49,682 bases of DNA from Opitutia bacterium (GTDB lineage Bacteria > Verrucomicrobiota > Verrucomicrobiia > Opitutales > UBA953). Shown piece by piece: positions 43,798-48,155 of this stretch (within the stretch, counting starts at the first letter, position 1; every line of letters begins with the position of its first letter). The notes under the pieces are model-generated. The model was given only the letters and a program-made list of their open reading frames with translations. It did no database searches and had not been told where the DNA came from. The position numbers and the translations under genes are program-made. Location: positions 1 through 49,682 of the forward strand of contig CANIUQ010000011.1 of assembly GCA_947470855.1 (NCBI GenBank), given 5' to 3'.

Positions 43798-44208
43798 TCA
43801 AGAATTGGAGTGAGGCTTTAACTGATTACCGGCAGATTCGAGTAAGAGTGCGGAAGGCAAGACGACCTCCTCATCTCGACTGGGTTGACCTCGTAAGATG
43901 ATTGCCGTCGCGGCCATGCCTTTAACCTCTTTTACTTTGAGAATAGCCGTGGGCTGAAGCTGGGAGTTGCGGGTGACAAGGAGAAAGCCACTCTTTACAT
44001 CAGCGGAGCTATTTTCCCTTACTAATTCGATTAGGACAATTTCGCCTTTAACGGCTTCGTTTCCAATAAACCCTAGGCGAGGGTTGGAGGAGGTTCCTTG
44101 GGGTCGTGTAAACGGAGAGACAGAATCTGGCTCAATCGTCTTGGGGAATGGCTCACTCGCACACCCCGTGAGGAGTGCGAGAGCGAGAATTCCAACAATC
44201 GTTTTCAC
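43798..44208 (-). CDS. Small predicted lipoprotein after rpoD
   Basis: I do not recognise a family. The 136 residues begin with a good lipoprotein signal ([19 protein letters not shown], lipobox LTGC). The mature part is beta-rich: [19 protein letters not shown], then [19 protein letters not shown] and [21 protein letters not shown], which may be an OB- or barrel-like fold. The ATG overlaps the rpoD stop by 4 nt, so it is translated from the dnaG-rpoD transcript. That placement is odd for an envelope protein. Confidence 0.72.
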
Positions 44209-46235
44209 TGACGCTGCTGCAGATTGTGGTTGAGCAATTCGTTTTGTGCCTTGAGTCGGAAAGCTTCCAAGGTAGCGCTGGGCTGCTCTGGGACGGCCAA
44301 TTTCTCGGCGGCGGTTTCCGCATCAATGAATTGATCAAAGCCAGGCCCAGAGGTATCGAGTTCACCCTCGAACATTCCTTGTAATTGGCGCATACGCGTG
44401 GGGTGACGCATCTTGCGTAGAGCTTTGGCTTCAATTTGGCGAATGCGTTCCCGGGTTACTTTGAAGTGACGACCGACTTCTTCGAGTGTTCGCTGCACGC
44501 CGTCGAGTAAACCAAAGCGTAAGATGAGAACTTCTTTTTCGCGTTCGGCGAGAGAGCGAAGAACGAAATCGATTTTTTCTCTTAAGAGTCGGGTCGAGGC
44601 AGTGTCACTGGGGTTTTCAGCCGACTTATCTTCGATGAAGTCGCCCAGGGCTGTGTCCTCACCGTCGCCCACGGGCGACTGCAAGGAAATAGGCTGCTGA
44701 GCCATCTTCATGATTTGTTGCACACGGTCGATGGCCATATTCATCTCGTTCGCGACCTCTTCGGCCGTGGGTTCGTGACCAAGTTCTTGGGTTAATTGTT
44801 TTTGCACCTGCATAACCTTGTTTAAGGTTTCAATCATATGCACAGGGATGCGAATGGTGCGGGCTTGGTCGGCAATCGAACGGGTGATGGCCTGACGAAT
44901 CCACCAGGTGGCGTAAGTGGAGAATTTGTAGCCTCGACGGTATTCAAATTTTTCCACGGCTTTAACTAAGCCCATATTACCTTCTTGAATGAGGTCGGTG
45001 AAGAGGAGACCGCGGTTTTGATATTTTTTCGCAATCGAAATAACCAATCGTAAATTGTGTTCAACCATCTCGGTCTTGGCTTTTTGGGCTTCATCTAAGT
45101 GTTTACGCACCGAGCGAACGATGAGTAAAAGTTCGGAAGGCGAGAGGCGCCAGCGCTGTTCAATTTCTTTAGCACGTGTCGCGGAAATCTCGGGCTTGCG
45201 TGCAAGTTTTGCACGCACATGACCACGCATCACGGGTGTTGGTTCAACGAGATTGCGACAATCTTCGAGATCAGCTTTGAGTTCGGGTAAGTCCAACCAC
45301 TCTTCAAAAAGTTTCATCTTGAAGCAGAACTTACGCAAAATGTCTTTGCAGCCGGTTTTACTAGTGGTTTCGATTTTTTTATAAGCCTCACGCACTTTGA
45401 CTTTCTTCGTACCCTCAGGCTCGTTAAGGTATTTCTGCCAAGCCTTATCGAGAGTCTCTTTAAGCTTCATACACTCCTCTGTCGCCTTCGGTAGCATGCG
45501 ATAGTAGGCGTCGCGGGACTCGACTTTTTTATCGATGACGACTTTGTCGAACCGTTCCTCTTTATTCAGAACTTTAAGGGCTAAATCGAGTTGATAAGGT
45601 AGGGTGAGGTAACAGGAGAAAAGGAATTCCTGGGCACGTAATTCGGTGTCCTCGATTCGTTTGGAGATTTCGACTTCTTGCTCGCGAGTGAGCAGGGGTT
45701 TATGGCCCATCTGCTTGAGATAAACATTGAACGGATCGTAAGGAGCATCCGCTGGCATCGTGCGTGAGGCCTCCTCTTCGGATTCGTCAATTTTCTTTCG
45801 ATAAATTTCTACTTCATCTTCATCGAGTAATTTAATTTCCAAATTATCGAGGATGTTCATGATGTTCTCAATCAACTCGGGGTCCGTAGCGCTATCTGGA
45901 ATAACCTCGTTGATGTTTTGTACTGTCACGTAGCCATTTTTCTTGGAAAGCCCGACCAAGATTTGCACCTTTTCATTAATATCTTTGGAAACAACCGGGT
46001 GATTCGTTGGTTTTTGCTGGCTCGATGAAGGTTTAGCAGTGGGTTTGGCCACAGCGACTGCTTTGGGGGTAGGTGCTAAAGGTTTTTTGGCCTCAGGCTT
46101 GGATGGCTTGGCCACGGCCTTAGACGGAGCTGGCTTGCTGGCTGCTTTGGCTGGCGGAGAAGCCTTCACGACTTTTTTGCTTACTTCGGGGGTCTTTTTA
46201 CCCTGAGGTTTTTTGGATTTTTTGGAGTCAGGCAT
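44205..46235 (-). CDS. rpoD: RNA polymerase primary sigma factor (sigma-70)
   Basis: RpoD directs RNA polymerase to housekeeping promoters. The 676 residues start with a Lys/Ala/Pro-rich tail (about 1-80). Region 1.1 follows (about 84-140), then region 1.2 ([24 protein letters not shown], about 165), a non-conserved region (about 195-390), region 2 ([34 protein letters not shown]), region 3 ([12 protein letters not shown]) and region 4 ([40 protein letters not shown]). A tail of about 50 residues follows region 4. It lies 1 nt after dnaG, the classic macromolecular-synthesis order. Confidence 0.97.
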
Positions 46236-46236
46236 T

Positions 46237-48093
46237 TTAGGAAAGGGATGGGGGTGTTGATTGATTTTTTCTCAGCGCAATTTTTTCAGACTGTAGTCGA
46301 TTGATGGTTTCGATTTCTCCGCTCGCACAAGCAGCAATGCTGGCATCGATGCGTCGAATTTGTGTTTGGATGTTTCTTAGATGAAAAGATTTTAGAATGT
46401 GGTTAAGGCTAGCGAGGGTCTCGAGGGGATTATCGGTGGTAGAAGAGGGAAGTGCGGAAAGTCGTGCACACTCTAGTTGTAAATCATCGTCTAAAGTGGG
46501 GATGACTTCTCGCAAACTGGCGAAGTGGCCGTGCTGGGCTTCATTGAGTAGTGCAATGAGCAGAGCGCCTGAGCGGCTGGATCGGGTAATCCATTCCAAA
46601 GGCAGGGTTTGTGAGACCGGAACAAAGTAAGCGTCATGCTTGAACAGAAGCAGTAATAGGTCGTCCTCGAGAGTTGTCAAGCCCCCCCCCTTGACAACAG
46701 GCGTGTCTGAGGGTGTGGGGCGGGTTAGTTGGCTAGCTGGTCTCTTGGCAGCCACCGTGGCCAAATGCCGTTCATAGGCCATGTGCATCTCGCGGATTCC
46801 TATACCAGCGAACCTTGCAGCCTCATTGAGAGCCTCGCGCACGACTTCTTCCGCTCCCGCTTGTTCGACGATGGGAAAGAGTTCCTCTAAAAGAGATAAA
46901 CGTTTGGCTAATGGCATCGCAGACGCTCCCGCTGGGATAATCGATTGCACACAGAATTGCATCGCACTTCGGCATGATTGCAAAAGATTAGGCCACTCGG
47001 CTAAAGTATGTGTCGAAAAATACTCATCAGGGTCTTTGCCGCCAGGTAGGGAAAGGAATCGAATATCCAGACCCTCTTTTAATGCGAGTGGGAGTAGGCG
47101 GAGCGCAGCTTTTTGCCCTGCTGCGTCGGAGTCCAAGAAAACAATCAGTTGTTTCGTGAAGCGTCGACATTGGGCAAGGTGTTCTTCGGTTACAGCTGTG
47201 CCTTGGGCGGCGATGACTCCATGAATGCCGAGGGAATGGCAACGGATTGCATCCAATTGTCCTTCGACTAGAACAAAAGGCTCGTGGTCTTCTCGGTTTA
47301 AACGAGCACGATCCAAATTAAAAATCGTGCGGGATTTTTTGAAAAGTTCCGTTTCTGGAGAGTTAACGTATTTTGCCTCACGCGAGGGGTCGTCCGCGGG
47401 CGTAATATCCAATACCCGTGCGGTAAATGCAATGATACGTCCTTGGATGTCGCGAATGGGGATGACCAATCGTCCGCGAAAACGACAACGCCAGCGTAAC
47501 GGGTCAGGTATACGATCCACTCCAAAAAAGAGTCCAGTTTGCGCAATCGCTTCTTTGGTGAAGTTTTTCTTAAGTAAACCTTGGATGAGTTTGGAATCAT
47601 CGACTGGGGCGAAACCGATTTTAAAATCATCGGCGACCTCCTTGGTAAATTTGCGCTGTTCAGTCCAATACTTCTGAATCCAGTCTCCATGAGCAGGATC
47701 CTCTAAAAAGCAACGGTGCCAGTAATCTGCAACGAGTTCATGGATATCGAGTAGCTGAGTGCGTAAAGAGCGATCCGCCATGGACTCAGTACCTTTTTCA
47801 TATTCAAGTTGGTAACCAAATCGAAGAGCAACACGCTCAATGGCCTCTGGAAAGTCCAGTCCTTCTCGTGCCATAACCAGTTTAAAAATATCGCCTCCTT
47901 GTTGCGTACTAAAGCAGTACCAAAGTCCTGTGGCGGGATTGACTTTAAACGAGGGGCTTTTTTCAGACTTGAATGGGCTGAGTCCCCACCAATCACGCCC
48001 GCGTTGCTTCATCTGGGTGTAGTCACTCGCTAAAGCAACGATATCTGCCCGTTGGCGTAATTCGTCGATGGATCTGCGGGTGATGAGGGCCAC
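46237..48093 (-). CDS. dnaG: DNA primase DnaG with degenerate zinc-ribbon
   Basis: DnaG makes RNA primers for replication. I start it at GTG 48093 ([19 protein letters not shown]); ATG is absent, and a TTG at 48147 is another option. That gives 618 residues. The N-terminal CHC2 domain is recognisable, but its zinc ligands are mostly lost: the Cys-x2-His position reads SPFK (Ser39, Lys42) and the Cys-x2-Cys position reads CFST (Cys60, Thr63). The TOPRIM core is intact: LVEGQLDAI and [16 protein letters not shown]9 tract at about codon 468 lies in the linker before the C-terminal helicase-binding domain. rpoD follows after 1 nt. Confidence 0.95.
46673..46698. repeat. 9-bp inverted repeat around a C9/G9 tract inside dnaG
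   Basis: GTTGTCAAG (46673-46681) is mirrored by CTTGACAAC (46690-46698), with only C between them. On the coding strand this is a run of nine G residues in the codons for Lys-Gly-Gly-Gly. Homopolymers of this length slip during replication, and a shift here would truncate the primase before its helicase-binding domain. Confidence 0.85.
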
Positions 48094-48120: not shown

Positions 48121-48155
48121 TGGGGAGCAACCGAAAATAATTCCCAATTCATTCA

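Follow-up and report, generated by a model that had tools for sequence, protein, structure and literature searches.

A DnaG primase with a zinc-less ribbon domain in an Opitutia bacterium, and related zinc-less primases in other bacteria and phages

The dnaG locus and its ligand positions

The window (the whole stretch of DNA analysed, 49,682 nucleotides) contains a gene for the DNA primase DnaG (Table 1). We counted residues from the GTG at 48093; an alternative start, the TTG at 48147, lies upstream of it. The predicted protein passed the TIGR01391 dnaG equivalog model with 341.8 bits against a cut-off of 283.6, and it matched the Pfam domains PF01807, PF08275 and Toprim. The TOPRIM catalytic acids (E277, D321, D323, D354 and D356) were invariant in an alignment of 33 homologues, and the C-terminal helicase-binding domain was present by structure match to 2R6C_G and 5Z51_A. 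A second, zinc-type DnaG or a second copy of the zinc domain was not found in the genome (1.36 Mb, 96% complete). Apart from the ligands that define the zinc ribbon, the protein matched a typical DnaG in all tests.

Table 1. Coordinates of dnaG, its domains and ligand-position codons, and the neighbouring gene in the window
Feature	Position	Strand	Basis
dnaG, DNA primase, 618 aa from GTG 48093	46237..48093	-	ORF; TIGR01391; PF01807, PF08275, Toprim
N-terminal ribbon domain, residues 1-100, zinc-less	47794..48093	-	PF01807 E 8e-26; 1D0Q_A superposition
S39 codon AGC, replaces zinc ligand Cys40 (E. coli)	47977..47979	-	Read from DNA
K42 codon AAG, replaces zinc ligand His43	47968..47970	-	Read from DNA
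C60 codon TGC, retained ligand position Cys61	47914..47916	-	Read from DNA
S62-T63 codons AGT ACG, replace Gly63-Cys64	47905..47910	-	S62 47910-47908, T63 47907-47905
RNA polymerase domain, residues 107-440	46774..47775	-	Z 33.4 to S. aureus DnaG 4EDG
Helicase-binding domain, residues about 470-612	46258..46686	-	Z 10-11 to 2R6C_G, 5Z51_A
RpoD-like sigma factor, context gene, directly downstream of dnaG	44205..46235	-	ORF; family assigned by eye

The zinc ligands of E. coli DnaG (C40, H43, C61 and C64) correspond to S39, K42, C60 and T63 in the window protein, with only the third ligand position kept, and the usual Cys-x2-His ... Cys-x2-Cys set reads S-x2-K ... C-x2-T. The local sequence around S39-PF-K42 begins GRDWWGL, and FS-T63 is followed by QQGGD. 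A sequence-only reading of this gene had reported the loss of three of the four ligands, and the translation and codons confirm both the residues and their coordinates. Even so, the domain still matched the Pfam CHC2 zinc-finger model. It is homologous to the zinc domain of other bacterial DnaG proteins (PF01807, CHC2; Geobacillus 1D0Q, Aquifex 2AU3), with which it shares position, predicted fold and the EKTPSF core, but from which it differs by the three replaced ligands and by Ser in place of Gly63.

Structure prediction indicates that the zinc-ribbon fold is kept in this domain. The AlphaFold2 model of the protein had a mean pLDDT of 88.7, and ten-residue blocks of the ribbon ranged from 81 (at the N-terminus) to 96, mostly 87-96; the input alignment consisted of 33 sequences, all zinc-less. 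Residues 1-99 of the model superposed on the zinc-bound Geobacillus structure 1D0Q_A with Z 15.4 and an rmsd of 2.2 angstroms over 99 residues at 39% identity, a likeness to be read with the fact that the predictor draws the same fold with or without bound metal.

Conservation and distribution of the zinc-less ribbon

The replacement residues were fixed among close relatives of the window genome. Ser, Lys, Cys, Ser and Thr occupied positions 39, 42, 60, 62 and 63 in all 40 aligned members of the genus, and the codons at these positions varied silently among them. No other domain of the protein was as conserved as the ribbon: mean identity within the genus was 97% in its core (residues 33-70), compared with 86% in the polymerase domain and 68% in the helicase-binding domain. 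Between the window gene and L093, whose proteins are 93% identical, the core contained 11 silent differences and none that change an amino acid. Constraint this strong argues that the domain is in use. Loss of the ligands could be taken to mean that the ribbon is degenerate and dispensable, but its rank as the most conserved domain, its low pN/pS and its near-invariant EKxPSF and CFS[ST] motifs make this very improbable. Sequencing or assembly error, or a pseudogene, can be discounted almost entirely, since 40 genomes agree while differing silently and the frame is open; the same agreement argues against chance.

The zinc-less state extended through nearly all of the window's order. We screened the order with a DNA pattern for the first ligand pair, which found matches in 92 of 103 genomes. 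The six matched genomes of one family, f14, had C-P-F-H; in every other family the printed codons gave S-P-F-x, with x never His. Every sampled family carries S-x-[C/D]-[S/T] at the ligand positions, except most of f14 (probably Opitutaceae), within which a single genome, G336, is zinc-less. In family f20 (L033-L038) the last Cys of the site is also gone, giving S-N-D-S (...DYSSG...); Asp at the C61 position (DFSSG) likewise occurs in many Bacteroidota and phage primases. Named relatives of the window DnaG were mostly Opitutae/Opitutales MAGs. We also note that in L228 (G137, f14 genus g59) a change of frame near FKGGGG breaks dnaG in two, separating an intact zinc ribbon (KALCPFH..CFGC) from the catalytic domain; the cause is either an assembly error or a real frameshift.

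We surveyed the wider class by anchoring on the DnaG catalytic domain, so the ribbon itself was not selected on. Zinc-less DnaG was found in families f30, f34, f86, f89, f91, f93, f96, f102, f105 and f108, and most of the remaining families in the class kept all four ligands.

These surveys bear on several claims of the sequence-only reading. Conservation, purifying selection and recurrence all support its view that the change was real and no decay, and sequencing error, which it named as a possible refutation, is contradicted by the shared residues and silently varying codons of the 40 genus members. It had suggested aligning DnaG proteins for a lineage-wide pattern: the S-K-C-T combination proved genus-wide, and the zinc-less state order-wide except for most of f14. 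Relatives with intact ligands, which it had held would speak against a real change, were absent from the near lineage but present in the majority of f14 and in most families of the class.

Some Verrucomicrobiota genomes additionally carried a zinc-less primase of mobile elements. A second primase-like gene with a zinc-less ribbon and a TOPRIM domain was seen in L253, L254 and L041 (G106 and G085; also G038:C94:5562-5825), G106 having seven copies and G085 and G038 a single copy apiece; in L253 the gene includes a helicase-like ATPase. The DnaG proteins of these hosts are themselves zinc-less. Another primase-like ribbon, in a gene distinct from DnaG (L524, G491:C27:203100-204900), reads S-R-D-L at the ligand positions (LSPFRNENTPSF..WYDHGLGKGG).

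Zinc-less DnaG also occurred outside the phylum. In Bacteroidota, sampled as the phylum of an Alistipes genome, about 40 of the 103 matching genomes read S-P-F-x by a count of printed codons. We fetched 20 of these places, and 19 were DnaG genes with S..[CD]FS[ST] and polymerase landmarks (the other was a different gene). Among about 100 genomes of Bacillota (the phylum of Desulforadius), no zinc-less DnaG was matched and all read C-P-F-H. In Alphaproteobacteria, which we sampled through plasmid and phage records, the DnaG of Methylobacterium bullatum and the primase of Caulobacter phage Sansa (AKU43493.1) were zinc-less, and the ligands were intact in Paracoccus, Pseudorhodobacter, Sphingomonas, Tistrella and Shinella. 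The Methylorubrum extorquens AM1 megaplasmid carries a second DnaG-like primase with a zinc-less ribbon (L416, 907002-909497; GLSPFQQERTPSFF..CFSSGRHGD). With a pattern open to both states (Cys was matched too), 24 of 120 viral contigs were zinc-less.

Repeated origins and an all-or-none change

Phylogenetic comparison shows that zinc-less DnaG arose several times within the class. The RpoB tree calls for no fewer than five changes of ribbon state, and well-supported branches force all of them; on the tree of the DnaG catalytic domain seven are needed, of which three are forced. A single zinc-less clade was rejected both on RpoB (p 8e-73) and on the catalytic domain (p 5e-87), which is the basis for concluding several origins. 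Zinc-less DnaG is not peculiar to the window genome, then, but order-wide, with several origins, and present in other phyla and in phages.

Inside the window's order, a single zinc-less clade was not rejected (p 0.31 and p 0.69). In the RpoB tree, zinc-type f14 falls within a set of zinc-less families, several nodes having SH-aLRT values of 98-99, and this placement would point to a regained zinc site in f14. Two other sources of the f14 protein were considered and rejected. Transfer of the whole gene is at odds with its catalytic domain, which groups with the order. Import of a foreign zinc domain does not fit its ribbon, which with the ligand columns removed is closest to those of the zinc-less neighbours L233 and L251, so the domain was not simply imported.

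The ligand residues changed together or not at all. Among 279 aligned ribbons, collected with a regular expression that limited position 40 to C, S or T and left positions 43, 61 and 64 free, 175 had the full C-H-C-C set, 104 were without ligands, and none was intermediate; the class set found through the catalytic domain gave the same all-or-none result. Sharp switches were confined to positions 40 (C to S), 43 (H to T, N, S or K), 63 (G to S) and 64 (C to S or T). Position 61 remains Cys or turns to Asp, positions 60 and 66 shift mildly, and the rest of the ribbon domain outside the ligand cluster showed no systematic difference between the two states.

This sequence pattern suggests that two arrangements of the site may be stable, zinc held by four ligands and, where the ligands are missing, a polar cluster joined by hydrogen bonds, and that partial sites are probably selected against. 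A tentative extension, which we regard as possible but doubtful, is that the ribbon makes concerted jumps of four or five residues in both directions. On this view f14 and f104 descend from a zinc-free ancestor and would have had their complete zinc site restored in situ, perhaps through recombination over short tracts. Phages and mobile elements, whose primases include both forms, would perhaps have been the partners in such recombination.

A probable metal-free ribbon and its alternatives

The role of the zinc motif in DnaG is described as unresolved in a review that lists its ligands as highly conserved (PMC6163395). In B. subtilis, the polymerase domain needs the ribbon to bind the template stably (PMC5429622). 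Ribbons of E. coli topoisomerase I keep their fold after loss of their cysteines (PMC10969213). Two of these, D8 and D9, are ligand-free and lie in a protein that handles single-stranded DNA, and we treat the likeness to the window ribbon as analogy, not membership: D8 and D9 are extra repeats beside zinc-bound ones, whereas the window ribbon is the only one of an essential primase. Phage primases, including that of Caulobacter phage Sansa and those on viral contigs, show the same S..[CD]FS[ST] replacements and the same all-or-none pattern, but they are phage-borne, and some are fused to other domains and are not DnaG.

We consider it highly probable that the window DnaG serves as the normal replicative primase of the cell and that its zinc ribbon is of a metal-free type; zinc would evidently be replaceable in this domain. 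The zinc site appears to be filled by a polar cluster of Ser, a polar residue or Lys, Cys or Asp, Ser, and Ser or Thr, which most likely closes the two loops by hydrogen bonds instead of metal. The kept sequence, the fold and the known role of the domain suggest that the zinc-free ribbon would still dock on the RNA polymerase domain and help select the template for primer initiation.

Zinc economy is one alternative reason for the change. Zinc-free versions of the ribosomal proteins L31 and L36 are zinc-regulated paralogues in many bacteria, and a lineage living with little zinc could have dispensed with the metal in proteins that are essential or made in quantity, DnaG included. Like DnaG, L31 and L36 alternate between zinc-site and zinc-free versions among lineages, and L31 was zinc-free in every genome of the window's order that we read, as was L36 in those read. 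In L463 and L499 (G000) and in other genomes of the order, the zinc-free L31 adjoins an L36 of zinc-free type, each a single match with no zinc-type copy beside it. However, the two traits come apart within the class. In f14 and the Akkermansia-like G155, a zinc-type DnaG is accompanied by zinc-free L31, and the reverse pairing, zinc-less DnaG with zinc-type ribosomal proteins, occurs in f34, f86 and f89 (and in f91 for L36), so zinc sparing alone is not the explanation. DnaG, in contrast to those paralogues, has one copy only, and across the class its state does not follow that of L31 and L36; the genome holds a single DnaG ribbon domain, not a zinc-free copy beside a zinc-type one. DnaG is also a low-abundance protein, and little zinc would be saved. 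Zinc sparing is therefore unlikely as the cause, although zinc economy may contribute to the pattern.

The Cys (or Asp) that is retained could still form part of a metal site, whether weak, shared or of another kind. The site could bind another metal or a hard cation through Ser, Thr, Asn, Asp or Cys; no residue other than Cys or Asp occurs at the third position, and the S-N-D-S of f20 is a plausible set of oxygen ligands. We find this improbable, since residues unsuited or barely suited to metal coordination (Lys, Thr, Val or Gly) frequently stand at position 43 and the state is otherwise the same. Oxidation resistance, template preference and drift in a two-state system are other possible reasons for a ribbon without zinc.

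We found no description of zinc-less DnaG in the open-licence literature, which is weak evidence of absence, and a specialist may already have noticed it. With a metal-free ribbon as the preferred reading, the natural zinc-free DnaG proteins, which span entire orders and are frequent in a second phylum, provide material to separate the contribution of the metal from that of the fold in template recognition. The lack of intermediates makes the DnaG ribbon a clean case of a multi-residue evolutionary switch. The findings also suggest that inhibitors aimed at the zinc of primase would miss these bacteria and phages.
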